A stretch of 37,605 nt of DNA, from contig JAFGAO010000168.1 in assembly GCA_016933615.1 (NCBI GenBank), forward strand, positions 1 through 37,605, written 5' to 3'. The notes beneath the pieces were generated by a model. That model saw only the letters and a program-made list of their open reading frames with translations. It searched no databases and was not told the DNA's origin. Shown one piece after another: positions 5,647 through 23,967 of this stretch. Position 1 is the stretch's first letter. The number at the start of each line of letters is the position of its first letter. The position numbers were made by a program, and so were the translations under genes. The stretch is from Acidobacteriota bacterium (lineage in GTDB: Bacteria > Acidobacteriota > UBA6911).

Positions 5647-7056
5647 ATTCCCGCCGAAAGAAAAGAAACCGCAGGCGTAAAAATCCTGCTCGGCGATCCC
5701 AAAAAAGCGATCATCCGGCTGTCGATCCCGATGGTCGTGGCAATGTCCTTTCAGACCCTCTACAACCTGGCGGATGCCGTCTGGGTTTCGGGCAGGGGTC
5801 CGGACTCCCTGTCGGCCGTGGGTTTCACCTTTCCGTTTTTCTTCCTGGCAAATGCGCTGGCCAACGGAATAGGCATCGGCGGCGGGGCGGCGATCTCCCG
5901 CAGAATCGGGGCCGGCGATAAGGCCGGGACCGACAAAGTCGCCGCCCACAGCGTCATTTCCAGCCTGATCCTCGGGGGGATTACCTGCGTCGTCATGTGG
6001 ATTCTGCTTCCCGCCCTGATGGAATTCATGGGCGCGACCGGAAACGCCCTGCGCCTTTCCATAACGTATTCCAGGATCATTTTCCTCGGGAGCCTGTTTC
6101 TTTTCTTCAACGCCCTCGCGGTTTCCCTGCTGAGAAGCGAAGGGGATGCGAAACGCGCGATGGTTGCCATGGCGCTCGGAGGAGTCGCCAATATCATACT
6201 TGATCCCGTTCTGATTTATGGCCTGGACCTGGGCGTAGCCGGGGCCGCTATCGCGACCGTTCTCTCGATGTTTCTGACGACGTTGCCTGCATTTTACTGG
6301 CTCTTTGTGCAGAAAAAGACATTTGTAACTTTCCGCTTCCGGGGATTTCGCTTCGACCGCAATATTCTCTACGATATCGGCAGAGTGGGGCTTCCCGCGT
6401 CCGTTTCGCAGATGTCCATGTCTCTGATGACGTTTCTGCTGACGACGATCATTGCCCGTGTCGGAGGGAGCATAGGCGTGGCGGTGTATACGAGCGGCTG
6501 GCGCATTGTCTCCATCGCCACCCTTCCGATGCTTGGGGTGGCCAGCGCCGTTACCTCCGTGACGGGGGCCGCCTTCGGGGCGTCGGATTTCAGGAAAGCC
6601 GCGACCGCCTATTTTTTCGCTCTCAGGACCGGAGTCGCGGTGGAGCTGGTTCTGGCCCTGGCGGTCCTTATTTTCGCCCCACAGATCACGTGGATTTTCA
6701 CCTGGTCCGAAGAGTCCAGTGTGCTGGTCCCGGAACTGGAGAAATTCCTTCGCATCGCCTGGGTGCTCCTTCCGACGGTGCCCTTCGGCATGCTCTCCTC
6801 GGGGCTTTTCCAGGGCACGGGGAAGGGCGTCTTCGCGCTGGCGGCTACCCTGATACGGACGATCGTGTTCACGGTCCCTTTCGCATGGCTTTTCGGGGTT
6901 CGCCTGGAATGGGGACTGCAGGGGGTCTGGATCGGCATAGTCGCCGCAGGGCTTGCATACATCCCTGTCGTCTTCGGCTGGGCGTGCCGCTACCTCAAAT
7001 CCCTTGTGCTCCAGGAATCCATCGGTGCTAAACTCGAAAAATCCGTTCCGACATAA
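5647..7056 (+). CDS. MATE family multidrug/cation antiporter with a probable ATT start codon
   Basis: This is a cytoplasmic-membrane exporter of about 470 residues with twelve predicted hydrophobic segments, typical of MATE proteins that expel drugs or metabolites using Na+ or H+ gradients. The N-terminal block IPAERKETAG...LLGDPKKAIIRLSIP and then QTLYNLADAVWVSG match family patterns. Between the in-frame stop at 5575 and the ATG at 5731 there is no ATG, GTG or TTG. Starting at 5731 would remove the first half of helix 1. An AAAAGGAG site at 5632-5639 lies 7 nt before ATT at 5647, which is in frame, so ATT is the best start. A substitution or sequencing error of ATG is an alternative. It follows the aldo/keto reductase gene at 13 nt. 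Confidence 0.88.
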   Translation: MPAERKETAGVKILLGDPKKAIIRLSIPMVVAMSFQTLYNLADAVWVSGRGPDSLSAVGFTFPFFFLANALANGIGIGGGAAISRRIGAGDKAGTDKVAAHSVISSLILGGITCVVMWILLPALMEFMGATGNALRLSITYSRIIFLGSLFLFFNALAVSLLRSEGDAKRAMVAMALGGVANIILDPVLIYGLDLGVAGAAIATVLSMFLTTLPAFYWLFVQKKTFVTFRFRGFRFDRNILYDIGRVGLPASVSQMSMSLMTFLLTTIIARVGGSIGVAVYTSGWRIVSIATLPMLGVASAVTSVTGAAFGASDFRKAATAYFFALRTGVAVELVLALAVLIFAPQITWIFTWSEESSVLVPELEKFLRIAWVLLPTVPFGMLSSGLFQGTGKGVFALAATLIRTIVFTVPFAWLFGVRLEWGLQGVWIGIVAAGLAYIPVVFGWACRYLKSLVLQESIGAKLEKSVPT

Positions 7057-7124: not shown

Positions 7125-8507
7125 ATGAAAAAGGATGAGGGGAAAATCGATGGGAAGCCCGCACCCTGTCGAATCCTGATTGTCGACGACGAAGAGACGG
7201 CTCTCGACCGCATGAAGAGCCTCATGGAGAGAAAAGGATTCGAGGTCCTTACGGCCCCGACCGGGGAGCAGGCGCTCTATTTATTGGACCGACTGAAATT
7301 CGACCTGGTGCTCACCGATCTGGTCCTGGGCGGCATCGACGGCCTTTCAGTGCTCGCATATTCCAAAAAGGTATCCCAGGATACGGAAGTCGTTGTCATT
7401 ACCGGGTATGCTTCGGTGGATTCCGCAATCCAGGCGACCCGGAAGGGCGCGTTTCATTATCTGCAGAAGCCGATCCGTTCCGACGAACTGTACCACATCG
7501 TGGAACAGGCTCTCGAGAGGAGCCGTTTGAAGACGCGGGTCCGGGAACTGGAGCAGGAAGGCGCATTCCACTCCCCCGATATCATCGGGAATTCACCGAA
7601 GATACAGGCAATAAAATCAACCATTGACAGGATGAAGCAGTCGGAAGCGAATGTGCTCATAGTCGGAGAATCCGGTACAGGCAAGGAGCTTATCGCCCGG
7701 GCAATTCACAATCACAGCAGAAGAAGGGACAGGCGCTTCCTGGCTTTCAACTGCGCTTCCTTCGCGGATGAACTCCTGGCCAACGAACTTTTCGGCCATG
7801 AAAAGGACGCTTACACCGGAGCTTCAAAGACCACCCCGGGGCTCCTGGAAAGCGCGGACGGAGGCACGGTTTTTTTCGACGAAGTCGGAGACATGTCCCC
7901 CACCATGCAGGCTAAGATACTGCGGGTAGTCCAGGAAAAAGAGCTGTTCCGGGTGGGAAGTTCCAGCCCCATCCCGGTGGATATCCGAATTCTTTCCGCA
8001 ACGAACAAAGACCTGAAAAAATTGGTGGAAGCGGGGATTTTCCGCCAGGACCTGTATTTTCGCTTGAACGTGATCGCCATCCAGCTTCCGACACTGGAGC
8101 AGAGAAAGGAGGATATACCGCTTCTCGGCATGAACTGCCTTAAAAAAGCGGCCGGCCGGATGGAAAAACATTTCGACGGTTTTTCCGAAGAAGCGATGGG
8201 CCTTTTGATGAACTACAGCTTCCCGGGCAACATAAGGGAACTTGAGAATATCGTGGAACGGGCCGCCGCCCTCGCCCCCGGAAGCCGGATTGAAGCCCGG
8301 GATCTGCCCTCCGACCTGCGGGCCTTTGAAACCGTTGCCTTTCGCAAGGAAAAGGGCATGATGAAAACCCTTTCGGAAATCCAGCAAGACTATATCCAGT
8401 GGGTACTTTCCCGGGTGGGACATAATAAAACCCATGCGGCTAAAATTCTGGGAATCGACCGCGTGTCGCTGTATCGGAAATTGAAGCAGCAGGAATTTGA
8501 AGAATAA
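7125..8507 (+). CDS. Sigma54-dependent NtrC-type response regulator
   Basis: The protein has 460 residues from the ATG at 7125 (GGAAGGG site upstream); an in-frame ATG at 7092 is possible but has a weaker site. Residues 20-130 form a receiver with acceptor Asp65 (VLTDLVLGG) and the conserved Lys in YLQKPI. Residues 160-395 form the AAA+ domain: Walker A GESGTGKE at 181 and Walker B GTVFFDEVGD near 247. The sigma54-contact loop reads DAYTGA (228-233) instead of GAFTGA. The C-terminus (HAAKILGIDRVSLYRKLK) is a Fis-type helix-turn-helix. Activated by phosphorylation, such proteins drive open-complex formation at -24/-12 promoters. Palindromic sites and a matching promoter lie immediately downstream, and a histidine kinase and lone receiver belong to the same cluster, so it probably regulates the operon at 8.8-17.5 kb. 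Confidence 0.93.
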   Translation: MKKDEGKIDGKPAPCRILIVDDEETALDRMKSLMERKGFEVLTAPTGEQALYLLDRLKFDLVLTDLVLGGIDGLSVLAYSKKVSQDTEVVVITGYASVDSAIQATRKGAFHYLQKPIRSDELYHIVEQALERSRLKTRVRELEQEGAFHSPDIIGNSPKIQAIKSTIDRMKQSEANVLIVGESGTGKELIARAIHNHSRRRDRRFLAFNCASFADELLANELFGHEKDAYTGASKTTPGLLESADGGTVFFDEVGDMSPTMQAKILRVVQEKELFRVGSSSPIPVDIRILSATNKDLKKLVEAGIFRQDLYFRLNVIAIQLPTLEQRKEDIPLLGMNCLKKAAGRMEKHFDGFSEEAMGLLMNYSFPGNIRELENIVERAAALAPGSRIEARDLPSDLRAFETVAFRKEKGMMKTLSEIQQDYIQWVLSRVGHNKTHAAKILGIDRVSLYRKLKQQEFEE

Positions 8508-8513
8508 AGTAAT

Positions 8514-8540
8514 AATTTGCAACACTATCAGTTGCAAATT
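8514..8540. promoter_or_regulatory. Palindromic activator-binding site 1 (candidate enhancer)
   Basis: Perfect 10-bp inverted repeat aatttgcaac-N7-gttgcaaatt, starting 6 bp after the response regulator stop. Each arm carries a TTGCAA core. There is no following T-run, so it is unlikely to be a terminator. It is about 140 bp upstream of the -24/-12 promoter, a normal distance for a sigma54 enhancer. Confidence 0.65.
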
Positions 8541-8595
8541 GTTACATGCTTCCTGATCGATAAACACGGACTCTTTAATGAATCCCCGCTTTTGC

Positions 8596-8612
8596 TGTTG
8601 CACGATGCAACA
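8596..8612. promoter_or_regulatory. Palindromic activator-binding site 2 (candidate enhancer)
   Basis: The inverted repeat tgttgca-cga-tgcaaca shares the TTGCA/TGCAA core with the site at 8514-8540 and lies about 65 bp upstream of the -24 element. Two related palindromes upstream of a sigma54 promoter and beside an NtrC-type gene point to binding by that regulator. Confidence 0.6.
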
Positions 8613-8677
8613 CCTCGCTCCCAGGGGGAATTACCCTAAATACTTCTTTTCTTTATATAAATCCCTCCAGGCTTCTT

Positions 8678-8693
8678 TGGACCACCAATTGCA
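8678..8693 (+). promoter_or_regulatory. Sigma54 (-24/-12) promoter
   Basis: The sequence TGGACC-N5-TTGCA matches the consensus TGGCAC-N5-TTGC(A/T), with the invariant GG at 8679-8680 and GC at 8691-8692 separated by exactly 10 bp. Transcription would begin near 8704, giving a leader of about 118 nt before the Usp-like gene. Placement between an NtrC-type regulator gene and the co-directional operon supports the call. Confidence 0.75.
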
Positions 8694-8821
8694 TTCTTTT
8701 GAAGCCCATGGTCCTATTCTGCAGCAGCCAAGGATGCCGCGATCCGGAAGTCACCGATACCGGCGCCTTGGCCCGCATTTCGCGAAAAGATTCTCGGCAG
8801 ATGCGGATCAACGGAGATGCG

Positions 8822-9250
8822 ATGGTCAGGGAAAAGAAAATTCTGGTCCTGTGCGAGGACTGCAACATCCGGGAGGAAAGCGTTCTTTATTCCATAGAAC
8901 TGGCCCGAAGGCTGGAGATGCCGATTCTGCTCCTGATGCTGGTCCAGGAGGCGCTGCGTTCATCCTGTCCGGAAGAAGTCCTGGTTAAGGAATTTGTGGA
9001 GCCGATCCAGAAGGCGCGGATCAGGGTGTCGAAAGACATCCGGTACGGAGGGGACAAAGCGGCTGAGCTGCTGAAGTACCTGGCCGTGCATTCCGGCCTG
9101 GCAGTTATCGTCTGGGGCAGCGACGAGAGGATGATCGGGAAGCTCGGCGCGGGAAAAACCTGCCATTGGCTCGGCAAGCTCACAGGCATGCTCCCCTGCT
9201 CCATCGTATCGCCGGTACCTAGAACCAGGGGCATGAGAGCAGGCACTTAA
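8822..9250 (+). CDS. Universal stress protein-like (UspA fold)
   Basis: The protein has 142 residues from the ATG at 8822 (GGAG five bases upstream). A longer frame from 8699 would begin before the predicted sigma54 transcript start and is rejected. The N-terminus EKKILVLCEDCNIREESVLYSIELARRLEMPILLLML follows the Usp pattern of a first strand and amphipathic helix. VIVWGSDE and the C-terminal LPCSIVSPVP match the later strands. The usual ATP-binding GxxGxxxxxxGS(S/T) motif is degenerate (GSDERMIGKLGAGKTCHW), so nucleotide binding is uncertain. It is the first gene of the predicted sigma54 operon, 24 nt ahead of the cytidylate-kinase-like gene. Confidence 0.8.
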   Translation: MVREKKILVLCEDCNIREESVLYSIELARRLEMPILLLMLVQEALRSSCPEEVLVKEFVEPIQKARIRVSKDIRYGGDKAAELLKYLAVHSGLAVIVWGSDERMIGKLGAGKTCHWLGKLTGMLPCSIVSPVPRTRGMRAGT

Positions 9251-9274
9251 AGAAAAAAAGGAGGATGGACTCCT

Positions 9275-10786
9275 ATGCAAATTATCTGCGTTTCCCGCGG
9301 CAGTTTCGGATACGGTAACGAACTGGCCGTGAAACTGGCGCAAAAATTGGGATACGACTGCATCGCCCGCGAAACCCTCACCGACGGGGCGACGGATCGG
9401 GGAATTCCCGTGGGCAAAATCGAATCGGCCGTTCTCAAGCGCCATCCCATCACCGAGGCTTTGGCCCTGCAGATGGAATTGATGAAGGCCTTCATATGCG
9501 AGCAGATATGCGGGCGCGCCCTGGAGAAGAGCGTAGTCTATCATGGAAGAACCGGCCACCTGGTCCTGCCCGGTATCAGCCATGTTCTAAGGATCCGGGC
9601 CATCGCCAACGACGAAGAGCGCATCAAGATGACCCTGCGGCGGATGCCGAACCTGACGCGGGAAAAGGCCAAGCGATACAACGACCAGGTCGATGAAGAC
9701 CGCCGCCGATGGGTTCGCACCCTGTACAACGCCGACTGGGAAGACCCCTCACTGTACGATGTTACAATCAACTTCCTGAATATGACGGCCGAGAATTCCG
9801 CATCCGCGCTGGTTTCCATAGCCCAGCTTCCGGAATTCAAGGCGACGCCCGCCTCGATGCAGGCCGTGCAGGACAGGCTCCTCGCTTCCCGCTGCCGGTT
9901 AGCCATAGGGAGGGACGACCGAACCCGGGAGATCGGCGTGACGGTGAAGGCGGACCACGGGAATGTCGCCGTCACTTATCTTCCGCGCCAGTCGAAAGAA
10001 GCCGCCTTTATTCCGGAGGTGCTGGGAAAAATTGACGGCATCCAGTCCATTGTCTGCACCGTTGCGACCACCAATATCCTTTACATCCAGGAAAGTTTCG
10101 ATCCCGACGCGCCTTCGCTGGAACAGGTCATCCAGGTGGCGGAAAAGTGGAACGCTTCCATCGAACTGATCCGTTTGCTTGAAGGAAAAGGAGCGGCGGC
10201 TCCTGAAGCCGTCACTGCGCCGGCTGCGGCGTCATCGGGTCGAGCCGCGGATGGAGGCATTCTGGACGACGCCTCGCCGGCATTGTCCCATGAGGGGCAT
10301 CCCGACGGCGTGGCTAAAACCTTCGACAAGCTGATTCAAGTGGGGCGGGCCAACACGGTCCGAACGATTCCGGGGGGGGCGCAGAAACTTCTTTCCAGCC
10401 TGAACCGGTCCGAGCAAAACAGCCTGGTGGTGGTCGGGGATGTTTTCCTGGCCAGAGAGATGTCGGTCCGGAAGCGCATGAGGCGGGATCTCATCAGTTT
10501 TCTGGCCGACCATTTAAAAATTCCCGTCATCAGCACGGAGGATCTCAAGGGCCAGTATCTCTTCGGAACCAAACAGTGGCTTCATATGGCCCTCTGCGCT
10601 GTCGCGACTGTCGCGGTCTACCTGGCTGTTTTCTACAATCAGGAGGCCGTTCTTCAATTCACATCGGCGCCCGGCACCGGGCGCCGGGTGCTGTCGGCCG
10701 CTCTGGTAGCGCTTTTTGTCCCGATAGTGGCCTGGATTTACGGCAGTTTTTCCCATTACGTTCTGAAGCTCATAAAGCTGGAGTAG
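9275..10786 (+). CDS. Cytidylate-kinase-like protein with BON-like and C-terminal membrane regions
   Basis: The protein has 503 residues with a good AAAGGAGG site. Residues 1-190 match the Cytidylate_kin2 family (ICVSRGSFGYGNELAVKLAQKLGY near the start); like that family it lacks a standard GxxGxGK[ST] P-loop. Residues about 210-285 resemble a BON domain (TVKADHGNVAVTYLP...IDGIQSIVC). Residues about 290-345 form an Ala-rich linker. Residues about 345-430 look like a degenerate Usp fold (NSLVVVGDVFLAREM...LKIPVISTEDLK). Two hydrophobic segments at about 434-453 and 472-492 anchor the C-terminus in the membrane. I infer a membrane-tethered nucleotide-binding or kinase-like sensor acting with the TauE/SafE permease encoded next; kinase activity is not assured. 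Confidence 0.8.
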   Translation: MQIICVSRGSFGYGNELAVKLAQKLGYDCIARETLTDGATDRGIPVGKIESAVLKRHPITEALALQMELMKAFICEQICGRALEKSVVYHGRTGHLVLPGISHVLRIRAIANDEERIKMTLRRMPNLTREKAKRYNDQVDEDRRRWVRTLYNADWEDPSLYDVTINFLNMTAENSASALVSIAQLPEFKATPASMQAVQDRLLASRCRLAIGRDDRTREIGVTVKADHGNVAVTYLPRQSKEAAFIPEVLGKIDGIQSIVCTVATTNILYIQESFDPDAPSLEQVIQVAEKWNASIELIRLLEGKGAAAPEAVTAPAAASSGRAADGGILDDASPALSHEGHPDGVAKTFDKLIQVGRANTVRTIPGGAQKLLSSLNRSEQNSLVVVGDVFLAREMSVRKRMRRDLISFLADHLKIPVISTEDLKGQYLFGTKQWLHMALCAVATVAVYLAVFYNQEAVLQFTSAPGTGRRVLSAALVALFVPIVAWIYGSFSHYVLKLIKLE

Positions 10787-10845
10787 TCCGGATCCGGCAG
10801 TGTTCATGGGAAAACGGATAGGGTGAATGCGGGAAGGATGAATAT

Positions 10846-11958
10846 ATGAACGAAATACTCGGGCATCAATTCATAGAAATGACGTGGTCCATCGCTCTGC
10901 AGGTCATGTTCCTCGGGTTCATCGGGGGGATGCTGAGCGGATTCATCGGCTCCGGAGGCGCGTTCTTCATGACTCCGGGGATGATGAACCTCGGGGTGGT
11001 GGGGAATGTGGCCGTGGCCAGCAACATCACGCATAAATTCGGGAAGGCCCTGATAGGATCCAGGAAGCACGCGGAACTGGGGAATGTCGACAAGAAGCTC
11101 TCCGTTTTCATGGCCATAACCGGGGCCATAGGAATTCAGCTTGCCGCATGGCTCATGGACCTTATGTCGGGCGGGGGGGATGCGCAGGAGGGCGGAGCCG
11201 GAGTCGACCTTTATATCAGCATCGTGTTCGTCGTCGTGCTTTCGATGGTGTCGCTCTCCATGCTGAAGGATATTATGAACACCCGCAGCGGGAACGGCAG
11301 CGGGCCCTCCACAAAGATTGTGGATTTTCTGAGCAGATTCAATCTTCACCCCATAATCCACTTCCAGGTGGCCGACGTCCGAGTCTCCCTGTGGGTGGTT
11401 CTGTTCTGCGGGTTGGCGACGGGGTACCTGGCCGGAACCATCGGCGTCGGGGGTTTCATAGGCGTTCCCGCCATGATTTATGTTTTCGGGGTTTCCGCTT
11501 CGGTGGCGGCCGGGAGCGAACTGTTCCTGGCGCAATTCAACGGGGCCTTCGGAGCGCTGACCTATGCATTCAAAGGCATGGTGGACCTGCGCCTGGTCCT
11601 GCTGCTTTTTTCCGGATCCCTTTTCGGCATTTATATCGGGGCCTACGGGACAAAGGTCGTAAAGGAGATCTTCATCCGCATGGTTACGGCCCTGATTATC
11701 CTTCTGTGCGTTCTGAGCAGGCTGGTCAATATCCCCACCTACCTGCAGCAGCTCGGATATCTCGATATGGATCCTTCCTATAATCCCTATTTCAACCTGG
11801 CGAGCAAGGCGTTGTTGTATGCCAGCGGGATAACGGGCGGGGCCCTGATCCTTTTCTTCGTACTGAAAGCCTATTTCCAGCGCAGGAAGATCCAGACAAG
11901 CCTGACGACGGGCGTTTCTTCCAAACAATCCGGGCCGATACCAGAGTCTTCCGTTTGA
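10846..11958 (+). CDS. TauE/SafE family permease
   Basis: The protein has 370 residues from the ATG at 10846 (GGAAGGA upstream). It has eight or nine hydrophobic helices and the two internally related family motifs: GFIGGMLSGFIGSGGAFFMTP near residue 25 and ATGYLAGTIGVGGFIGVPAM near residue 190. TauE/SafE proteins export or import small organic or sulfur anions such as sulfite, sulfoacetate or taurine; the substrate cannot be read from sequence. Residues 105-160 form a long soluble loop with GGGDAQEGG. The gene lies inside the predicted sigma54 operon, 59 nt after the kinase-like gene and 15 nt before the 328-residue protein gene, so the cluster probably regulates or energises this permease. 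Confidence 0.9.
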   Translation: MNEILGHQFIEMTWSIALQVMFLGFIGGMLSGFIGSGGAFFMTPGMMNLGVVGNVAVASNITHKFGKALIGSRKHAELGNVDKKLSVFMAITGAIGIQLAAWLMDLMSGGGDAQEGGAGVDLYISIVFVVVLSMVSLSMLKDIMNTRSGNGSGPSTKIVDFLSRFNLHPIIHFQVADVRVSLWVVLFCGLATGYLAGTIGVGGFIGVPAMIYVFGVSASVAAGSELFLAQFNGAFGALTYAFKGMVDLRLVLLLFSGSLFGIYIGAYGTKVVKEIFIRMVTALIILLCVLSRLVNIPTYLQQLGYLDMDPSYNPYFNLASKALLYASGITGGALILFFVLKAYFQRRKIQTSLTTGVSSKQSGPIPESSV

Positions 11959-11973
11959 AAAGGAGGGGGGGCC

Positions 11974-12960
11974 ATGGCTGGAATTCTTGAAAAAATAGGC
12001 GGCGGCGCTCGAATCCGTAACGCCCGGACGGAACTTCTCCTGCAATTCCTGAGATTCCGGAAATTTCTGGAGAATATGAAGGAAATGATCCGCATCATCG
12101 AGGATGGAAAGGACAAGCTCGGGGAGGAATACATTTTCGACAGGCATTATGTCCTGTCTCTGGTCGACGGCGTCCTGGAAAACGCCGCCATGATGGCGTT
12201 CGACGCATCCGTCCTGGCCCCGGCCGCCGGACGGAACGTATATCGCCGGCTCGATGCGCAAAGGAAATTCGCACGGGAGGAGTTTCTTCAATCCCCCGGC
12301 ATCATGCGCATGGAACATTTTCCCCTTTCGGCCGCCCATAAGGATAAAGACCCGGAGACGCTGCTTCTGTCGGCGGTAGTGAACTGGTTTACGGGCCCGC
12401 TGGAGCGGGGCTCGCCGTCCGTCATGGATTTTATCCGAACCGCGGCCGATGCCGTAATCGGCAATTGCGGGAAAGACGAACCGGTCGAAAATGCGGGCTC
12501 ATACTCCGGGAAAGTGAAATTGAGCGGCGGCGGCCTGCTGCAAACCTTCGATATAAACGGGATCGCACCGGCGGGAGGCAAGGGCTTCGTATCTCCGGGG
12601 GATATCCCGTGCCGCCCTTTCGGCCTGATGCGTTTGGGATCCGTTGAAAATCCCGTTTCGGCAGGAATTTCCGCAACGGAATCGGGAATCGAACGCCGGA
12701 TGATCTTCGACCGGGAATCGATCAGCCTAGGATTGCGCTGCAATGAAGGAAAAATCCATCTCGAAGCGACGCTTTCCGGAGACGTTGCCTCCGACTATAT
12801 TTTTCTGTATTTCCGGAAACCCTTCGATTCCAGGCACGAACTTTCCCGCGGATTTCAGGTGGAAGAAACCGGGGAGGGAATTTTAGCCTGGTATCGGGAT
12901 GTCCCGACCGACGACCTTGAGAAACAGCTGGTTCGACTGGGTTCCATTCTGCTTCGTTGA
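11974..12960 (+). CDS. Uncharacterised protein sharing terminal domains with the adjacent ATP-grasp protein
   Basis: The protein has 328 residues, an excellent AAAAGGAGGGGGG ribosome binding site, no signal peptide and no membrane segment. I do not recognise a named family. Residues about 18-105 are helical (LRFRKFLENMKEMIRI...YIFDRHYVLSLVDGVLENA) and align by eye with residues 20-95 of the ATP-grasp protein encoded two genes downstream. Residues about 240-326 (MIFDRES...YIFLYFRK...GILAWYRDVPTDD...LVRLGSIL) align with residues 690-793 of the same protein. The nucleotide and phosphohistidine domains are missing from this copy. I infer a non-catalytic paralogue that may pair with or compete with the phosphotransferase. 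Confidence 0.75.
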   Translation: MAGILEKIGGGARIRNARTELLLQFLRFRKFLENMKEMIRIIEDGKDKLGEEYIFDRHYVLSLVDGVLENAAMMAFDASVLAPAAGRNVYRRLDAQRKFAREEFLQSPGIMRMEHFPLSAAHKDKDPETLLLSAVVNWFTGPLERGSPSVMDFIRTAADAVIGNCGKDEPVENAGSYSGKVKLSGGGLLQTFDINGIAPAGGKGFVSPGDIPCRPFGLMRLGSVENPVSAGISATESGIERRMIFDRESISLGLRCNEGKIHLEATLSGDVASDYIFLYFRKPFDSRHELSRGFQVEETGEGILAWYRDVPTDDLEKQLVRLGSILLR

Positions 12961-13001
12961 GCCGGGCCGCCAGTCGGTTTACAGATAAGGATAGGTATCC
13001 C

Positions 13002-13379
13002 ATGAACAGAAACCTGCGGATCATGGTTATCGACGACGAGAATATCGTGGGCAAAAGGCTGAAACCGGCCCTGGAAAAAGACGGCGACATCGTCGAGGCC
13101 TTTACCGATGCCAGGAAAGCGCTGGAGCGTTTCAGCGAACAACAGTTCGATATCGTTGTGTCCGATATCCGGATGGACGATATCGACGGGCTCGAGGTCC
13201 TCGAACAGGTCCTGGCGCGTTCCGAAAAAACCAAAGTCATAATCATCACCGGGTACGCCACTGTTGAGGTCGCTCAAGAGGCATTGGTCAAGGGAGCTTT
13301 CGATTTCATCGCCAAACCTTTCAAGCCGAACGATCTTCGATCCATCATCGACAAGGCCGCCAAGGAACTGGACAAATGA
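13002..13379 (+). CDS. Single-domain CheY-like response regulator
   Basis: The protein has 125 residues from the ATG at 13002, with a GGATAGGT site; an in-frame GTG-type start at 12957 would overlap the previous gene and is less likely. It contains only a receiver domain: acidic pair in VIDDENIVG, phospho-acceptor Asp55 in VVSDIRMDD, Thr in IITGYATVE and Lys in FIAKPFKP. With no output domain it would act by protein contact or as a phosphate sink for the cluster's histidine kinase. It sits 24 nt before the ATP-grasp protein gene, so a direct interaction with that protein is a reasonable inference. Confidence 0.92.
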   Translation: MNRNLRIMVIDDENIVGKRLKPALEKDGDIVEAFTDARKALERFSEQQFDIVVSDIRMDDIDGLEVLEQVLARSEKTKVIIITGYATVEVAQEALVKGAFDFIAKPFKPNDLRSIIDKAAKELDK

Positions 13380-13403
13380 AATTCCGGGAAAGGGGGCGGA
13401 CTC

Positions 13404-15863
13404 ATGGCCGGGAAGCTGAAGGCCGAAGAGAATGACTATAACTGGAGATTCAGGTATCGCTATGAAACTCTGCGGGCGATCCTCAATCGAAACGGCCGGG
13501 TTCTCGAAATTCTTTCCGATCTGGAAGCGGATTACAATCATCTTGCTTTTTCCGATTTTCAGGTGCGCCGCTCCGTGAGGCGGTTATTCGATGAAACCTG
13601 CCTTATGGCCCAGGAACTCAATATCCTGAGCCATGGCCGGCATTCCGCTTTATTCGGCGCGCTTGACAGGATCCGGCGGGAGGTGAACGGAAAAGAGCAG
13701 GAGGTCTCCGAACGGCAGCAACGCCCTCTGTCGGTTCCTTTAAACGACGAGGAATCCCTGGATCCCGGCCTGGTCGGGGGAAAGGCCGCCGGCCTCTCAT
13801 CGCTGTATCACAATTTCCCCGGCCGCGTGCCGGAAGGCTTCGTTCTCACCACCGGCGCGTATGAGCAGTTTCTGAGAAAGGGGAAGCTGTTCGAACAGAT
13901 TCGGCTTCTGCTGAAGGACCTGGAGTATACGTCGGACCGGGACCGCTTCCGCCAACGGTCCGGATCGATCCGGGAAGCGATAGTTTCCGCGGAACTGCCG
14001 GCGTCCCTGCACGAGGAGATCCGCCGGCAAGCCGCCGCTTGCGGCGCGGCGGAAACCTCTTTATGGGCGGTACGGTCCAGCGCCGTCGGCGAAGACGGCA
14101 GGTTTTCTTTTGCCGGCCAGTTCGACAGTGTTCTGAATGTTTCCCCGGAGGATCTTCCGCGGGCCTACAGGGAAGTAATTGCGGGCAAGTTCAGCGAACG
14201 GGCCATCACGTACCGGATCCATTGTGGTTTCCGGGAAGTGGATACTCCCATGGCGGTCCTTTTTATGCCGATGGTCGACGCCAGGGCGGCCGGCGTTGCC
14301 TACACGGTAGATCCCGTGGACCCGGAATCCGACACCATGGCAATCCATTGCGTGAATGGCCTGGGTCAAGCGGTGGTTAAAGGCATCGGCGTACCGGACA
14401 GCATTGCACTCTCGCGGCAGGCGCGACCGGAAATCCGGCGCATGCAGGCGTCCGGGATCCCGGTCGAAAAGCTCGAGTACCTGTCTCGGGAAGAGATAAG
14501 GGAAGTCGGAGCAACGGCATGGAAAGCCGCCGTCGCCTTCGGCCACGATCTGGACATCGAGTGGGCTGTGGATAAAAACGGTCATGTCCGGTTGCTGCAG
14601 GCCCGCAGGGTGCAGCCGGCCGGTTCCGTTAAAACCGGGGAGGTGAAGCCCGGGAAGGGGACATGGCTTATCGGCAAGGGAACCACTATTTTCCCCGGAA
14701 GGGCTGAAGGCCCGGTTGCCGTGCGCTCCGCGGAAAATCCGGATCCCATTCCCAAAGGAGCCGTTCTGGTTGTCAGGCAGCCGACCCCGGACCTGGCGCC
14801 GCTGCTGTCCGAAGCCGCTGCGGTGATCGCGGCTGAAGGGAGCCCGGTGGGGCACCTGGCGACGCTTCTCCGGGAATTCGCCGTCCCGTCCATATTCCAG
14901 GCCGGCGGACAAATCGCGGATCTGCGGGAAGGCCATGTAATAAGCGTCGACGCCTCAAGGCGCAGGGTTTATCCGGGATCCCTCTGGCCGGGAATGAAAG
15001 AGCGCGTCCTGGCAAGGCTGGCATCCGCCGGGAAACGGAAAGAGGAGGGGCCGCTCTTCCGCAACATCCTGGCTTTGAACCTGGTCGATCCTTTCGGGCC
15101 GGGCTTCAAGCCCGGACGCTGCCGTTCCGTTCATGACGCCATCCGTTTCATTCACGAAATGGCCGTACGGTCCATGTTCCGGTTCGGGGATGAACACTCG
15201 AGATTCCTGAACCGGAAAACAAAGCGGCTTAAATCTGAAATCCCAATGCCGATTCATGTATTGTCCCTGGAGCAGGAACTGCCGGCGGAAGAAAAGGCCT
15301 TGGCGCCGGAATTTCTTTCCAGCACTCCTTTTGAAGCCTTCTGGAAAGGGTTCTCCGACCGCCGGCTTGCCTGGCCGGACCGCTGGGGCGGGGTCCACGC
15401 GGCGATCTCCAGCGATCTTCAGGATCAGGTGTTCGGCGGGGCGAAGGGCCCGCGCCGCAGAAAAGATCCCAATTACCTTATTTACGCCCGGGACTACATG
15501 AACTTCAACGCCCGTTTCGCCTACCACTACGCCATGGTGGATTCCCTTCTCGGGCCGGGAGAACGGAACAACTACATCCAGCTGCGGTTTCACAGCGGCG
15601 GCGGAAGCGATGAACGGCGAAAACGCCGCGCGGGGTTTCTGGAAAGGGTCCTGAGGGAGTCCCGATTCGGCGTGACCCGGGAAGGCGATCTGATCACGGC
15701 CTGGTTCCGGAATTACCCCTCGCAGGACACCCGGCTGGCCCTCACGCTGCTCGGCCGTCTCCTGGTCTGTTCGCGGCAGCTGGATATGTTGATGCACATG
15801 GACAGCGACGTTACAATGTTCGCGGATCATTTTCTGGCGGGGAAGTTCCAGTCATTTTCGTAA
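13404..15863 (+). CDS. PEP-synthase-like ATP-grasp / phosphohistidine protein with a novel C-terminal domain
   Basis: The protein has 819 residues from the ATG at 13404 (AAAGGGGG site). Residues 20-95 are helical. Residues about 120-420 form the ATP-grasp domain of PEP synthase/PPDK: VGGKAAGLSSL, LWAVRSSAVGEDGRFSFAGQ, GVAYTVDPVDPES and DIEWAVDKNGHVRLLQARR. Residues about 430-525 form the swivelling domain with candidate phospho-acceptor His484 in EGSPVGHLATLLREFAVPSIF. The usual PEP/pyruvate barrel is absent; residues 540-819 are an unrecognised domain ending in NYIQLRF and LITAWFRNYPSQDTRL. Rifampicin phosphotransferase has a comparable plan (ATP domain, different acceptor domain, His domain), so an ATP-dependent phosphotransferase with an unknown acceptor is the best inference. 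The terminal domains recur without the core in the 328-residue neighbour. Confidence 0.85.
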   Translation: MAGKLKAEENDYNWRFRYRYETLRAILNRNGRVLEILSDLEADYNHLAFSDFQVRRSVRRLFDETCLMAQELNILSHGRHSALFGALDRIRREVNGKEQEVSERQQRPLSVPLNDEESLDPGLVGGKAAGLSSLYHNFPGRVPEGFVLTTGAYEQFLRKGKLFEQIRLLLKDLEYTSDRDRFRQRSGSIREAIVSAELPASLHEEIRRQAAACGAAETSLWAVRSSAVGEDGRFSFAGQFDSVLNVSPEDLPRAYREVIAGKFSERAITYRIHCGFREVDTPMAVLFMPMVDARAAGVAYTVDPVDPESDTMAIHCVNGLGQAVVKGIGVPDSIALSRQARPEIRRMQASGIPVEKLEYLSREEIREVGATAWKAAVAFGHDLDIEWAVDKNGHVRLLQARRVQPAGSVKTGEVKPGKGTWLIGKGTTIFPGRAEGPVAVRSAENPDPIPKGAVLVVRQPTPDLAPLLSEAAAVIAAEGSPVGHLATLLREFAVPSIFQAGGQIADLREGHVISVDASRRRVYPGSLWPGMKERVLARLASAGKRKEEGPLFRNILALNLVDPFGPGFKPGRCRSVHDAIRFIHEMAVRSMFRFGDEHSRFLNRKTKRLKSEIPMPIHVLSLEQELPAEEKALAPEFLSSTPFEAFWKGFSDRRLAWPDRWGGVHAAISSDLQDQVFGGAKGPRRRKDPNYLIYARDYMNFNARFAYHYAMVDSLLGPGERNNYIQLRFHSGGGSDERRKRRAGFLERVLRESRFGVTREGDLITAWFRNYPSQDTRLALTLLGRLLVCSRQLDMLMHMDSDVTMFADHFLAGKFQSFS

Positions 15864-15939
15864 GGCTCGATTCCCCCGTACGGGGTTCGATGCGGGAGGT
15901 CTGCTTCCGCTTCGGGCAGCCGGCAAGGAACCTTCTATC

Positions 15940-17481
15940 ATGAACATGACGGTCCAAGACAACCCGATGCCGCCCGGCAGCCCGAACACTCCCAGTCGGG
16001 AGCTGGGCAAGGAATACCTCGAGGATATCGCCCTCAAGTCCCGGCCGGTCATCAGCATCCGCTTCAGGCTCTTCCTTGCTTTTCTGGTGATCTTTGCATT
16101 CTCCATGATTGTGGCTTTATGGTCCATTTACGCGCTTTCCGGCATCCAGGCTAAAATTCTTTTTCTGGAGGCGGCTGGCGACTATCTTGCCGAGATACAG
16201 CAGGCCCGCCGTTTTGAAAAGAATTTTCTTCTTTACGGGACCAACCTTGAAGATTCCATGCAGCACCTGCAGACCGCCGAGGAGATTCTTCAAAAAAACA
16301 AGAATACTATTGAGAAGATACTGGGGCGCAATTCCATCCGGGGCATGTCCCTCCAGTTGAGCAACTACCATAAGGTGCTGGAGAAGGTCGGCGAGGCCGG
16401 CGACACCGATGAACGGAACCGGTACGAGCCGGAGCTGCGCGAGTATGGAGGGCAGCTGGTTTCCGACGCCACAAATTTCGTAGAAAAGGAACGGGAGGCG
16501 GTCGAGGGGGCCCTTTCGCTCTCCCGCCGCGTCCCCTTTTACTTCCTCGGAATCCTGATGGTGTTGATCATCGTCATCACCTCGTTCCTGGTGAAGAACA
16601 TCCTTTCGACGCTGAACCGTTTCCTTGAGTACACCAACAGGATCGGGGAGGGGGACTTTTCTCCCATATTGCCGAAGAGGAAATACCGCGATGAATTTTC
16701 CCAGCTCGGGCTTGCCTTCAACCACATGATCCGCGAGCTGGACAAGCGCCACAAGATCCTGATCGAGTCCCACAAACTGCGCGCCGTCGGGACGCTGGTC
16801 GCCGGCGTCGCGCACGAACTGAACAATCCCTTGAACAACACCATGCTGACGGCAGGCCTCCTCGAAGAGGACTTCGGGCGGCTGCCGGACGAAGAGAAAC
16901 TGGATCTGGTCCGGGACATCATCAAGGAAACGGATAGGTCGAAGGTGATAGTCCGGCATCTTCTCGATTTCGCCCGCGCCAGCGAATACAAAATTGTCGC
17001 CATGGACCTGGAGAAACTGCTGGAGGGTTCCATACGCCTCGTTCACAACCGGGTCAAGCTGGCTAAGATCGACCTGCAGATAAAATTGACGCCGGACCTT
17101 CCCCCCGTTCACGGCGACGAACAGGCTTTGCAGCAGGTATTCATAAACCTCATTCTCAACGCCGTGGACGCTCTCCCCCCCAAAGGCAAAATCGCCATTA
17201 CCGATTCCAAAAGCAGCCAAGGGGGGTTTATAGAGATTAAAATAACCGACAACGGCGCGGGCATACCGGAGCATATCTTGCCCCGCATCTTCGACCCGTT
17301 CTTCACCACGAAAGTGAAGGAGAAGGGAACGGGCCTGGGTCTGTCGGTTTCCCAGGGGATCGTGCGCCGCCTGGGCGGGAACATCACGGTGGAGAGCCGT
17401 GTCGGCATGGGGACGACTTTTACGGTGCTTCTGCCGACAACCGAGGTTCCTTCTTCCGTTTCCGCCGCCGCGGACTCCTGA
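15940..17481 (+). CDS. Membrane HAMP sensor histidine kinase
   Basis: The protein has 513 residues from the ATG at 15940 (AAGGAA upstream). A first membrane helix lies near residues 45-68. A periplasmic helical sensor region of about 130 residues follows (rich in Glu/Lys heptads, recalling four-helix-bundle sensors) and a second helix near 195-218. A HAMP linker follows (NRIGEGDFSPILPKRKYRDEFSQLG). The H box is VAGVAHELNNPLN with His292. The ATPase domain has NLILNAVDAL (N box), DNGAGIP (G1), FDPFFTT (F) and GTGLGLSV (G2). It closes the cluster and is the likely phosphodonor for the NtrC-type regulator at 7.1 kb and the lone receiver at 13.0 kb. The periplasmic signal is unknown. Confidence 0.93.
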   Translation: MNMTVQDNPMPPGSPNTPSRELGKEYLEDIALKSRPVISIRFRLFLAFLVIFAFSMIVALWSIYALSGIQAKILFLEAAGDYLAEIQQARRFEKNFLLYGTNLEDSMQHLQTAEEILQKNKNTIEKILGRNSIRGMSLQLSNYHKVLEKVGEAGDTDERNRYEPELREYGGQLVSDATNFVEKEREAVEGALSLSRRVPFYFLGILMVLIIVITSFLVKNILSTLNRFLEYTNRIGEGDFSPILPKRKYRDEFSQLGLAFNHMIRELDKRHKILIESHKLRAVGTLVAGVAHELNNPLNNTMLTAGLLEEDFGRLPDEEKLDLVRDIIKETDRSKVIVRHLLDFARASEYKIVAMDLEKLLEGSIRLVHNRVKLAKIDLQIKLTPDLPPVHGDEQALQQVFINLILNAVDALPPKGKIAITDSKSSQGGFIEIKITDNGAGIPEHILPRIFDPFFTTKVKEKGTGLGLSVSQGIVRRLGGNITVESRVGMGTTFTVLLPTTEVPSSVSAAADS

Positions 17482-17608
17482 GAGCGGCAGGGTCCGCTAT
17501 GTCCGCACGCTGACAGTATGCCCAAACGGCTGCGAACTTCCCGCCCCGAAACAGGCGCCGGATCCGAAGGGATGTCGTTGTGCGCCCGCGGGGTGGAGGC
17601 AATGCTGT

Positions 17609-19648
17609 TTACGCCGGTTGTTCGCGGTATCCCAAGACCATCATGGTGATGTCGTCGTGCTGGGGCGCATTTGCGGAAAAGGAAAGGACGCTCTCCTCGA
17701 GACGGGACAGGATCACCGCGGCGTTCGATCGCGCATTCGACCGCAGGAGGTCCACCAGCCGCGGGAGACCGTACTCCTCCTGGGAGGAATTGAGGGCCTC
17801 GATGACGCCGTCGGTGAACAGCACCAGGTGATCGCCCGGCTGCATCCGGACGGAGCCCTGCTCGTAGGCCGCGTCGGCGAAAAGGCCGAGGACCGTTCCC
17901 CCCGTCTGCAGCTCCTTCATGGAACCGTCGCGGCTCACCAGGAGCGGGGCATTGTGCCCGGCGTTGACGTAGATGCAATTTCCTTCAGAATCGAGCATCC
18001 CGAGGAAAAAAGTCACGAAACGGCTGCCTGTCCCGCGCTGAACCAGTTCGCGGTTGACGCCGCCGATAATTGCGGGAATAGGCGCATCGAGGAAATTCTG
18101 CGCCGCGAACATTCCCTGAACCAGGGAGGCCAGGATCGCGGCGGGCATTCCTTTGCCCGCCACATCGCCCACCGCGAATCCGAAATCCCCGTTCTCCAGT
18201 TCGAAGTAATCAAAGTAATCCCCGCCGATGGAGTAGCAGGGCAGGCTCCGGCTGCAGGCCCGGATGAATTCAAGATTCCTGGTCGGCTGGGGAAGCAGGG
18301 CCTGCTGGATCTCTTTCGCGATGGCCAGCTGTTCATCGAACCTGCGTTTGTCCTGGGAATCCTTGTAAAGCCGGGCGTTGAAGATCGCCATCGCGGCTTC
18401 CGATGCCAGTGTTTCCAGCGCGTCGATGCGGGTTTCCGACATTTTGGAGCCGATATTGGGGCTGTCCACATAGAGAACGCCGATGGATTCAGCGGGGCCC
18501 ACGGTTGATGTGCCGAAGTTGTCGCGCGCGGTAATATAGCGCAGGGGAACGCAGGAAATGCTGCGCAAACCGAGCTGCCGCGTGGAATCGTGTCCCTCAT
18601 TTGCCTGATCGAAATCAAGATCCTTGATGATAACCGGGCGGCCGGTCCTGAAAACATCCTGGGGGACCCGCTTGCTCGTCCGGAAGCACGATCCGTCCAA
18701 CGAATGCTTGTTGTTGTCGCGGGCGCAGCGGAAGACCAGCTCTCCGCTTTGTTCCTTGAGCATGATGACTCCCCGCTCCGCTCCCGTCAGCTCAATCGCG
18801 GTATCCACAACCAGGGCGAGGAGGTCGTCAAGCACCGCAATGGAGCTGAGAGCCCGTAGAGCCTTGAACAGCTTCCCGACTTCCTTGAATCCGTAGAGCG
18901 ACAATCCGGTTTCGGCCCTGGGATCCGAGAGGCTCAGAAGGCTTTGCAGGAGATCCCCCTTGTGGAATGAAAGGCTCGTTCCCTGCGGGCCTCCAAGCTG
19001 AATCCTGTCCCCGTCGGTCAACCGGGCCTGCTGAATTCTGACGCCGTTGAGAAAAGTGCCCATCTTGCTGTCCAGATCGTGCAGGAAATATTCGCCGTCC
19101 TCGACCAGCACTTCGGCGTGACAGCGGGATACACCCCTCTGGCTCAAAATCAGGTCGTTTCCCCCGCTTCTCCCCAGGGTCATTCGCGGAGGGCTGATGT
19201 CGACCCTGTTTTCCTTTCCGCTCTCGTCAAGATAAAAAATGAGGGCGGTTACGGGCGAGGCCGGATTCTCCCGGCGGGACGGCAGCCTCTGGGCGAGGCG
19301 CCGGAGGCTGGCGCTCAGGGAATCGGGGGTGAGTGGGGCGGAAAGGACGTCGGCCGCTCCCTCGCGCCAGGCGTCGAGAATGGTGTTTTTGGTAGCGGAG
19401 TCGCTCACGATCACCACCGGCAGGGAAGGCTTCAGCCCGGTTTTCTGTTTCAGCCTTCCCAGGGCGCCGTCCTCTTCTTCGGCTTTCAGATAGACAATGT
19501 CTATCGGCTGCTCGCTGATCGGTTTTTTTGCCCTGTCTATATCGGCCGCGGTCCATATCCTGTGCCCGGAACGGGTTAAATGCGCCCGGGCGGAATCTTC
19601 CTCCCCGGCGTTGATCCCGATCAGCAATATATTATAGCAGTCTGCCAT
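17609..19648 (-). CDS. Pseudo-receiver / FHA / GAF / SpoIIE-type PP2C phosphatase
   Basis: The protein has 679 residues; the ATG at 19648 is chosen over an upstream start because a GGAG lies 8 nt before it. Residues 1-115 resemble a receiver, but the acceptor position carries Lys (IDIVYLKAEEED), so it should not be phosphorylated in the usual way. Residues about 150-215 form an FHA domain (LGRSGGNDLIL..RGVSRCHAEV...DSKMGTFLNG) that binds phosphothreonine. Residues about 255-430 form a GAF domain. Residues 445-679 form the PP2C core with metal ligands in GGDYFDY, VGDVAGKGMPAA, AGHNAPL, FTDGVIEA and HDDITMMV. It probably dephosphorylates the STAS antagonist encoded 77 nt upstream on the same strand, releasing it to bind a kinase/anti-sigma factor located elsewhere. 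Confidence 0.92.
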   Translation of the reverse strand: MADCYNILLIGINAGEEDSARAHLTRSGHRIWTAADIDRAKKPISEQPIDIVYLKAEEEDGALGRLKQKTGLKPSLPVVIVSDSATKNTILDAWREGAADVLSAPLTPDSLSASLRRLAQRLPSRRENPASPVTALIFYLDESGKENRVDISPPRMTLGRSGGNDLILSQRGVSRCHAEVLVEDGEYFLHDLDSKMGTFLNGVRIQQARLTDGDRIQLGGPQGTSLSFHKGDLLQSLLSLSDPRAETGLSLYGFKEVGKLFKALRALSSIAVLDDLLALVVDTAIELTGAERGVIMLKEQSGELVFRCARDNNKHSLDGSCFRTSKRVPQDVFRTGRPVIIKDLDFDQANEGHDSTRQLGLRSISCVPLRYITARDNFGTSTVGPAESIGVLYVDSPNIGSKMSETRIDALETLASEAAMAIFNARLYKDSQDKRRFDEQLAIAKEIQQALLPQPTRNLEFIRACSRSLPCYSIGGDYFDYFELENGDFGFAVGDVAGKGMPAAILASLVQGMFAAQNFLDAPIPAIIGGVNRELVQRGTGSRFVTFFLGMLDSEGNCIYVNAGHNAPLLVSRDGSMKELQTGGTVLGLFADAAYEQGSVRMQPGDHLVLFTDGVIEALNSSQEEYGLPRLVDLLRSNARSNAAVILSRLEESVLSFSANAPQHDDITMMVLGYREQPA

Positions 19649-19725
19649 AGACGATGCTCCGATGTCGCTGTTGCCGCGCACCACAAACAGCCTTGCCTGT
19701 TATTTCGTCGATCGCTCGATGCAGT

Positions 19726-20064
19726 TTAATGAAAGCTGGCAACGGCGGCTTTTTCTTCGTCGTAGGTGTCGAAAACGGTCATCAGCTTCGTAATCGTAAG
19801 CAGCTGTTTTATTTTGTTCGTCAAGTTGAGCAGCTTTAAATGCGCGCCGTTTCTGGCGGCGCTGGCGTAGCTGCCCACCAGTTCGCCGATCCCCGAACTG
19901 TCGATATAGCTGATTTCGCCGAGGTTGAGAAGGATCTTTTTCGCGCCGCCGTCCAGAAGTTCCCGGACCGTATTGCGGACCGACATCGTTCCCGCGCCCA
20001 GGGTGATTTTCCCGCTGCAATCCACTATCTTGACATCTCCAACCGTCCGTACTTCGATCTTCAT
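19726..20064 (-). CDS. STAS-domain anti-sigma factor antagonist
   Basis: The protein has 112 residues from the ATG at 20064, preceded by GGAGG; longer in-frame DNA upstream has no family match. The motif YIDSSGIGELVGSY holds the Ser (56/57) phosphorylated by RsbW/SpoIIAB-type kinases. KLLNLTNKIKQLLTITKLMTVFDTYDEEKAAVASF is the typical C-terminal half. Phosphorylation inactivates such antagonists and PP2C phosphatases reactivate them; the phosphatase gene directly downstream is the obvious partner. No anti-sigma kinase is encoded in the window, so the switch must be completed elsewhere or act on a non-sigma target. Confidence 0.93.
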   Translation of the reverse strand: MKIEVRTVGDVKIVDCSGKITLGAGTMSVRNTVRELLDGGAKKILLNLGEISYIDSSGIGELVGSYASAARNGAHLKLLNLTNKIKQLLTITKLMTVFDTYDEEKAAVASFH

Positions 20065-20162
20065 GATAAACCTCCATATCTCCGGAGAGGTCCTTTTGGG
20101 GACGTGTTCCAGTTTATATGCACCGGATTTTACGGTCGCCCGGCGGGAAACATGTCCCGCCG

Positions 20163-20597: not shown

Positions 20598-20869
20598 TCT
20601 CCCTCCGGCTCATTGCAGCCCCCCGGGGTCGCCGGGGATCCGTATCACCGGATTAGGCATTGTTTGCGGGCATACCGTTTCTCGGAAAACTCAGTGCGCT
20701 GCTTGGATACCTGGATAATTCGTTCTGTGAAACTGCGATTATTATATTCGAACCATACTGTTTGGAAAAGCTGAATTCAAGGTTTCAATTTTGTTTCAAT
20801 CGACGGCCTCCGGCCGGGTGATCCTGAGAAACGGTCCGGTCCTGGGAGTATTAATGAACGGCTTCCTTT

Positions 20870-23728: not shown

Positions 23729-23967
23729 TTGTCGGCACTCCCCGATCGTGCGCTGCGGCTCCTGTGAAGATGTCCGGGATCCGATTCTAATGCCTTCCGC
23801 TTCGCGAAACAAACACAACAGATTCGCCCGGGCAAAATAAAAATGTTCTCAAAAAATTACGTATATCTTAGTAGTTGATCTATTCTCATATCCTCCATTA
23901 TGATAGCGTCCTTGAAATCCTGATAGAGTTTTCGCTTCGCACTTTCCAAAAACCAAGGAGATGCGTT

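Follow-up and report, generated by a model that had tools for sequence, protein, structure and literature searches.

Which proteins import sulfate into dissimilatory sulfate reducers, and how that uptake is regulated, is treated as an open question in two papers (PMC5840216, PMC11887813). A stretch of 37,605 nucleotides from an Acidobacteriota bacterium (contig JAFGAO010000168.1, hereafter the window) carries genes that bear on it. On the + strand, a gene for an NtrC-type regulator is followed by an operator/promoter gap (8508-8693) and by seven genes with intergenic gaps of 15-76 bases, which encode a Usp-like protein, a protein with a Cytidylate_kin2 domain (the kinase-like protein), a TauE permease, a protein of 328 residues, a receiver, an ATP-grasp/phosphohistidine protein and a HAMP histidine kinase. 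What is this operon for? In our judgement it is probably a self-regulating uptake module for sulfate, or a related oxyanion, in dissimilatory sulfate reducers; its conservation and its link to sulfate reduction come from genome comparisons, while we infer the substrate of the permease, the direction of transport and the step carried out by the ATP-grasp protein.

Searching genome contigs with the ATP-grasp protein gave 25 loci, whose labels include Desulfobacterales, Desulfobacterium, Latescibacterota, Myxococcota and Acidobacteria. The complete order, from regulator to kinase, is found in the window and in L002 (77% identity), L003, L006 and L020, the latter four being metagenome-assembled genomes (MAGs) with different labels. 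Two loci with TauE are partial, as one contig ends before the kinase gene (L005) and another begins inside the gene for the kinase-like protein (L004); in L021 regulator and Usp-like protein were not detected, and in L026 the slot of the 328-residue protein is occupied by a 789-residue paralogue of the ATP-grasp protein. An SLC13-type transporter stands in place of TauE in 11 loci (L007, L009, L014, L015, L016, L018, L019, L022-L025), mostly with two short kinase-like genes, so that the 26 loci of this named set, window included, hold nine TauE and 11 SLC13-type forms, with L008 and L010-L013 too short to classify. In L009, the locus scanned against Pfam, the transporter matches CitMHS, Na_sulph_symp and TrkA_C, and the SLC13 form is similar to DASS and SLC13A1 structures. 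In L003 a second module (TauE, an ATP-grasp paralogue, two receivers, kinase-like protein, kinase; 14061-21849) directly follows the first on the same strand, and an island on contig 6 of G241 (about 55-117 kb; L053, L060, L066) holds at least three ATP-grasp copies, several TauE and kinase-like genes, dsrA and sat. The ATP-grasp gene is split in two reading frames in L017 (3818-6324), L022 (6908-9332) and L025 (9980-12387), either really or through assembly error.

The association was then counted within the window's phylum, for which 395 genomes (its own included, the others at least 90% complete) were surveyed at E 1e-100 for the ATP-grasp family; 17 of them carry it. Of 25 ATP-grasp places, 20 have TauE (PF01925) within 8 kb (15 of 17 genomes), against 0.75 expected from gene density, and 14 have the kinase-like family (PF13189) within that distance (13 of 17 genomes), against 0.59 expected; these counts used 103 of 104 TauE and 80 of 81 kinase-like rows, since in each case one match was split and only its first half was counted. 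ATP-grasp copies are undercounted at this threshold, as the two best candidates per genome were scored here and the three best in the second phylum considered below. A survey of flanks covered 49 loci, 41 of them with at least 6 kb of flank; duplicates (L001, L027-L037, L061) were skipped, and the counts still include the overlapping L053/L060 and the pairs L039/L040 and L044/L045, which are more than 95% alike. Of the 41 well-flanked loci, 35 have an anion transporter (of the TauE or the SLC13 type), 36 a receiver, 33 a histidine kinase and 29 a kinase-like protein. These neighbour counts indicate that the association of ATP-grasp protein, permease, kinase-like protein, receiver and kinase is wider than the window's form, and that the sigma54 part belongs with that form. 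Judged by gene order across genomes, the gene set is a conserved operon, recurring beyond chance; the original prediction, made from the window's letters, had staked itself on such co-occurrence, and the set does recur.

The carriers are, with few exceptions, genomes with dissimilatory sulfite reductase. We took dsrA as a match to TIGR02064 at E 1e-60 and sat as a match to TIGR00339, a model which also matches assimilatory genomes. In the window's phylum 27 of 395 genomes have dsrA, among them 17/17 carriers of the ATP-grasp family versus 10/378 non-carriers (Fisher 3e-23); by genus the figures are 13/13 versus 7/199 (Fisher 4e-16). These p-values, like the others here, are inflated by shared ancestry, an effect that counting by genus and comparing within a phylum lessen and do not remove. 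A second phylum, that of G415 (labelled Desulfobacterium, the genome behind L009; 296 genomes), gave dsrA in 105 of 107 carriers versus 42 of 189 others (p 2e-42). Among the 25 named genomes, three of which also belong to the two phylum samples, dsrA was found in 22, in 21 of them above the curated cut-off, and not in those of L005, L017 and L022. The family also follows sulfate activation: when the 27 genomes of the first phylum that have dsrA are compared, 17/17 carriers possess sat versus 3/10 non-carriers (p 1.4e-4). As a separate observation, the seven dsrA genomes that have neither the ATP-grasp family nor a sat match, out of the ten without the family, may be sulfite reducers or use Dsr in a pathway that does not activate sulfate.

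In several genomes the two gene groups are physically close. On contig 48 of G316 (L042), sat, a kinase-like gene, TauE, the ATP-grasp gene and a second TauE are consecutive and share a strand, about 12-111 bases apart, and HdrA-like genes, which by their position are probably qmo, lie together with aprA, dsrA, dsrM and dsrK about 4-22 kb from the ATP-grasp gene. The order in G044 (L038) is sat, two kinase-like genes, an unidentified stretch, a third kinase-like gene, TauE, ATP-grasp and TauE, and that in G054 (L044) is sat, kinase-like, TauE, ATP-grasp, kinase-like, TauE, receiver, kinase-like and kinase, with unidentified stretches between some of them. Overall, dsrA lies within 16 kb of an ATP-grasp gene on the same contig in five of 17 genomes (G014, G054, G086, G241, G316). 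The window's own genome carries dsrA on contig 169, along with aprA and an HdrA-like gene; its sat gene is on contig 10. A search for DsrD as a sign of the reductive direction gave no match anywhere, control genomes included, and is hence uninformative. By these genomic comparisons, a link of the gene set to sulfate reduction is well supported; neither this link nor the exchange of TauE for an SLC13-type transporter was part of the original prediction.

How is the operon controlled? The pattern TGTTGCA-N3-TGCAACA (at most two mismatches) occurs in the 300 bases after the regulator gene in 14 of 15 loci, as against 0.015 loci expected from shuffles, and six times in the remaining 266 kb of these loci; it was derived from loci included among the 15, and the shuffles, for operator and promoter alike, keep base composition only. 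With at most one mismatch it is found at a single place, 8596-8612, in the window's own genome (G000, an assembly of 298 contigs, 82% complete, in which the window is contig 127). Three-site arrays with spacings of 21-22 and 67-79 bases are present in L015, L017, L020 and L025. The long palindrome at 8514 in the window, AATTTGCAAC-N7-GTTGCAAATT, consists of the right half of the copy at 8508 and the left half of that at 8530, and may be taken as parts of two weak sites that belong to such a three-site array. Downstream lies the -24/-12 element TGGACCACCAATTGCA, whose score of 9 of 11 letters was equalled by 4 of 300 shuffles of the gap. Of the 15 loci, 13 have an element with at least 8 of 11 letters; in 11 of these no more than 5 of 300 shuffles do better, and the elements of L002 and L023 are weak (beaten by 52 and 35); L016 and L025 have none in a gap which the automatic starts of open reading frames (ORFs) probably shortened. 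The promoter starts 80-91 bases past the start of the last operator in 10 of 12 loci with both elements (82 in the window), with L023 (141) and L026 (184) as outliers. The sigma54-contact loop of the regulator reads DAYTGA instead of GAFTGA, and among 14 regulators, window included, 11 have DA[YF]TGA, two GAFTGA and one EAYTGA.

Because a conserved site array and a sigma54-type promoter lie between regulator and operon, the regulator most likely drives its own operon, to which it looks dedicated. The palindromic sites and the -24/-12 promoter of the original prediction are accordingly real features shared between loci, and its reading of the genes as one operon around an anion permease, under their own sigma54/NtrC regulator, agrees with the conserved operator, the promoter spacing and the lack of a second site in this genome.

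The protein that defines the family is the ATP-grasp protein. Its ATP-grasp and phosphohistidine domains resemble those of phosphoenolpyruvate (PEP) synthase and also models of rifamycin phosphotransferase. Lys127, Arg224, Glu386 and Gln399, which we take to be catalytic, are present in 58 of 58 aligned rows and His484 in 55, the split copy of L025 having a gap there; the rows include two duplicates (copies of L045 and L060), which are dropped from the set of 56 copies used for receiver adjacency. The split L022 copy was left out of one ATP-grasp comparison, and the structure alignment is without L018, L022, L024, L025 and L026. The protein shares with PEP synthase and pyruvate phosphate dikinase (PPDK) the PPDK_N and phosphohistidine domains with the catalytic residues tested, but a helical domain is added in front of the ATP-grasp core and the last 290 residues replace the PEP/pyruvate barrel, as the original prediction of an ATP-grasp/His protein devoid of that barrel had it. 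This C-terminal domain has no Pfam match, its best match among PDB sequences (E 0.13) is no convincing relative, and no PEP-barrel protein is among the fold matches listed. Its predicted fold (model confidence 73) gave no confident match (best PDB match E 0.017, to a DR_1245 structure) and was not used as evidence. Invariant columns in a 30-member alignment are L558, D578, H584, P614, P642, H708, N723, G784 and D794.

The 328-residue protein is, on profile comparisons, the ATP-grasp protein without its catalytic core. Direct comparison of the two is weak, and the link runs through intermediates: the profile of the shorter protein matches residues 13-109 and 606-762 of the 789-residue protein in the same slot of L026, and residues 89-191 and, weakly, 413-578 of a 608-residue protein in L021. 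Both relatives have lost catalytic residues (K127I and E386V, with the His kept, in L026; R224A and H484D in L021). Searched alone, the 328-residue protein was found in two of 60 relatives, its own genome included. What had been predicted as a paralogue of unknown kind is thus related to the domains that flank the core of the ATP-grasp protein.

The remaining proteins fit the families given to them to varying degrees. The permease matches PF01925 with 120 bits (cut-off 32.6) and has a mean column identity of 75% among nine cluster members; no structurally solved relative was found by sequence. The small Usp-like protein has no Pfam match of its own, and its predicted Usp likeness stands through four of 15 orthologues which match PF00582 (best E 3e-4). 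For the kinase-like protein, predicted to combine cytidylate-kinase-like, BON and membrane parts, the first and last were recovered as a Cytidylate_kin2 domain and hydrophobic segments, while the signal for BON is weak (Foldseek E 0.018; with Pfam, E 0.31 in a relative). Its model (confidence 75) matches Cytidylate_kin2 and CMP-kinase structures best (Foldseek E 1e-6), with Usp (4e-3) and OsmY (0.018) structures lower. A Usp-like stretch, placed at residues 263-422 by the profile of the small Usp-like protein (E 1.8e-4), is also supported by these Foldseek matches. The Walker A lysine of CMP kinases is not conserved, being Lys in L003, L005, L021 and L026, Asn in the window and L002, Arg in L006 and Ser in L020, and this membrane protein with its decayed P-loop is therefore likely to be a nucleotide sensor rather than a kinase. 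The HELNNP motif is present in 30 of 32 histidine kinases, and the sensor region between their two hydrophobic stretches showed no Pfam domain above cut-off besides HAMP in the five kinases scanned, and so lends no support to the periplasmic signal of the original prediction. All parts named in the original prediction are present in their places (Table 1).

Table 1 Features of the operon and its control region in the window.
Feature	Position	Strand	Basis or remark
NtrC-type response regulator (receiver, sigma54-activation ATPase, Fis-type helix-turn-helix)	start 7092 or 7125, to 8507	+	Pfam Response_reg, Sigma54_activat, HTH_8
Two weak operator-like copies, 22 bases apart	8508..8546		8508 with 4/14 mismatches, 8530 with 3/14
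Perfect operator TGTTGCA-CGA-TGCAACA	8596..8612		pattern search
Sigma54-type -24/-12 promoter TGGACCACCAATTGCA	8678..8693	+	9/11 consensus letters
Small Usp-like protein, 142 residues	8822..9250	+	alignment; PF00582 in 4/15 orthologues; start picked by eye (GGAG ahead of ATG 8822)
Cytidylate_kin2 protein with weak BON-like stretch, Usp-like stretch and two hydrophobic segments (434-455, 470-494)	9275..10786	+	
TauE/SafE (TSUP) permease	10846..11958	+	Pfam
328-residue protein: N- and C-terminal domains of the ATP-grasp protein, catalytic core missing (profile comparison)	11974..12960	+	
Stand-alone receiver	13002..13379	+	Pfam Response_reg alone
ATP-grasp/phosphohistidine protein, His484	13404..15863	+	Pfam PPDK_N, PEP-utilizers; PEP/pyruvate barrel absent
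Membrane histidine kinase; hydrophobic segments 35-69, 193-226	15940..17481	+	Pfam HAMP, HisKA, HATPase_c

Upstream of the regulator lies a MATE transporter gene (5731-7056, + strand). The next gene after the operon, on the opposite strand, encodes an FHA-GAF-SpoIIE phosphatase (17609-19684), which is also present in the same-genus L002 (15188-17224). Minus-strand genes of the window further include those for an aldehyde ferredoxin oxidoreductase (254-2377), a large NAD-glutamate dehydrogenase (20870-23818) and a DUF4382 protein (25144-27060). No sulfur gene was found among the 10 ORFs of the window scanned in addition to the operon, three of which had no match.

Several observations weigh against a self-regulating module for sulfate uptake. 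The regulator and the Usp-like protein are present in only 13 and 14 of the 41 well-flanked loci, and among the genomes of the window's phylum none but its own and the same-genus G008 showed the complete form. L017 has regulator, Usp-like protein, 328-residue protein and receiver, with neither permease nor kinase-like protein between the second and third of these, and its contig stops just past the ATP-grasp gene. His484 is replaced by Ser in L020 and by Arg in one L026 copy. A reversed control pattern of the operator was likewise found once in the window's genome, so that the single occurrence of the operator speaks for few other targets and not for enrichment. On the side of sulfur metabolism, two carriers in the second phylum lack a dsrA match but possess sat; in both phyla some genomes with dsrA are without the family (10 of 27 and 42 of 147), which means that it is not required; and sat and dsrA of the window's genome sit on contigs other than the window's. 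Finally, a module for oxyanion export or stress defence would yield the same co-occurrence. Its TSUP permease would export sulfite or another toxic sulfur anion, or answer a stress such as molybdate, with the Usp-like and kinase-like proteins acting as stress proteins. A TauE protein is termed a functionally characterised sulfite exporter in PMC5840216, and a Desulfovibrio vulgaris cluster with a sigma54 regulator, histidine kinase, Usp proteins and a PSE transporter, DVU0539-0545, alters fitness under molybdate according to PMC10102598. However, the permease is exchangeable with an SLC13-type transporter related in sequence to DASS and SLC13 anion symporters, the ATP-grasp family is tracked better by sat, the sulfate-activating step, than by dsrA alone, and sat is adjacent or near in several genomes. 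We consider export or stress defence rather unlikely.

Two other explanations concern the ATP-grasp protein. In a phosphorelay, as originally proposed, His484 would pass its phosphoryl group to the lone receiver and on towards the regulator, making the ATP-grasp protein an alternative kinase input. This would suit the conservation of His484 and of the ATP-grasp residues, and a receiver lies within 400 bases on the same strand in 37 of 56 ATP-grasp genes, with acid pair, phosphorylated Asp and Lys identical in 36 of 36 such receivers. On the other hand, 15 of the 19 copies that have no adjoining receiver have intact flanks, and we know of no His-to-Asp transfer from domains of the PEP-synthase type; such a relay seems unlikely to us. 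The other explanation is an ordinary two-component TSUP operon accompanied by a metabolic dikinase: the ATP-grasp protein would phosphorylate a small molecule held in its C-terminal domain, as rifampin phosphotransferase does its drug, and have no role in signalling. The likeness to PEP synthase and rifamycin phosphotransferase models favours it, and the conserved polar residues D578, H584, H708 and N723 could form a pocket. Yet a non-catalytic paralogue (the 328-residue protein, or its 608- and 789-residue relatives in the same slot) is retained beside the ATP-grasp protein, and the genes often found nearby encode receivers, kinases and permeases, which together suggest a regulatory complex; we regard a purely metabolic role as doubtful, on a par with the relay. 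Co-occurrence could also reflect phylogenetic hitch-hiking, or horizontal transfer together with the genes of sulfate reduction, with no functional tie. In favour of this, the C-terminal domain of the window's protein is closer to cluster copies in MAGs of other labels (41-60% identity) than to aligned copies of carriers in its own phylum (26-35%, except the same-genus L002 at 84%). Against this, the picture is the same in two phyla, in the counts by genus, in the distribution of sat among genomes with dsrA and in the closeness to sat at the level of operons, and we think hitch-hiking very improbable.

The uptake reading also has counterparts among described systems. The accessible descriptions of the D. 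vulgaris genes DVU0539/0540 and DVU0542-0545 (PMC10102598, PMC3333781, PMC4641369), with regulator targets in PMC3333781, resemble our operon in that a sulfate reducer has a putative sulfur-anion transporter with Usp partners and with sigma54 control through a two-component system, but differ in transporter family, and name no cytidylate-kinase-like, ATP-grasp, 328-residue or lone receiver protein. D. vulgaris has, according to PMC4641369, nine sigma54-dependent operons with TSUP or PSE transporters. In Desulfosarcina variabilis, a DASS sulfate transporter is surrounded by two-component systems and CBS proteins, with related clusters in a total of 26 species and a proposed link between uptake and energy state; as far as the accessible text goes, that cluster differs from ours in its WalR-type regulators, Cache-domain kinases and CBS proteins, and no ATP-grasp protein is named (PMC11887813). 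The words 'cytidylate' and 'universal stress' are absent from the main text of that paper, with whose DASS cluster the SLC13 form described here may overlap. TSUP genes lie near sat or apr in a few genomes, according to PMC5840216. The Usp domains of TeaD and KdpD, which are among the Foldseek matches of the kinase-like protein, are tied to a transporter or its regulator, whereas here the Usp-like part shares its polypeptide with a Cytidylate_kin2 domain and a membrane anchor. No paper naming the full gene combination was found in searches of the main text of open-access papers. As the ATP-grasp and kinase-like partners are unnamed in the texts seen, the operon would be a further sigma54/two-component anion-permease operon of sulfate reducers, built around a protein family that is undescribed as far as the literature was searched.

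If the operon does serve sulfate uptake, it could work as follows. The membrane kinase would sense a signal and phosphorylate the NtrC-type regulator, switching it on when sulfate or energy is limiting, and the regulator would turn on the operon through its sites and the sigma54-type promoter. The permease, TSUP here and SLC13-type elsewhere, would import sulfate. The Usp-like and kinase-like members of the operon may bind nucleotides and gate the permease, in the way in which Usp proteins are reported to act on TeaABC and KdpD. These partners would tune the uptake of anions to the ATP/AMP state of the cell, on which the activation of sulfate bears directly through Sat and APS reductase, the latter yielding AMP. 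PEP synthase forms a phosphohistidine from ATP, giving AMP; the ATP-grasp protein would likewise charge His484 from ATP with formation of AMP, and the phosphoryl group could go to an acceptor, either the adjoining receiver or a ligand of the C-terminal domain. AMP is also released in the reduction of adenosine 5'-phosphosulfate (APS), and the ATP-grasp protein could therefore read the cost of sulfate activation. Pushed further, and this is speculation that we consider unlikely, this phosphohistidine protein derived from PEP synthase might be an energy gauge, in which the charging of His484 by ATP is opposed by AMP from APS reduction and the phosphoryl group is passed to the lone receiver or the permease complex via the new C-terminal domain, so that what sulfate activation costs would throttle sulfate uptake. 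If true, such a protein would add a novel type of input to signalling, next to those from histidine kinases and the phosphotransferase system.

The ATP-grasp family is nearly confined, in the two phyla surveyed, to genomes with dsrA, and is often found beside anion permeases and sometimes beside sat; it has a new domain and, in the form present in the window, comes with a sigma54 switch of its own. This turns the question of sulfate uptake into one of directly testable genes and gives a lead on how uptake is controlled in sulfate-breathing bacteria, and the family itself may serve to mark sulfate reduction in metagenome bins of little-known phyla.

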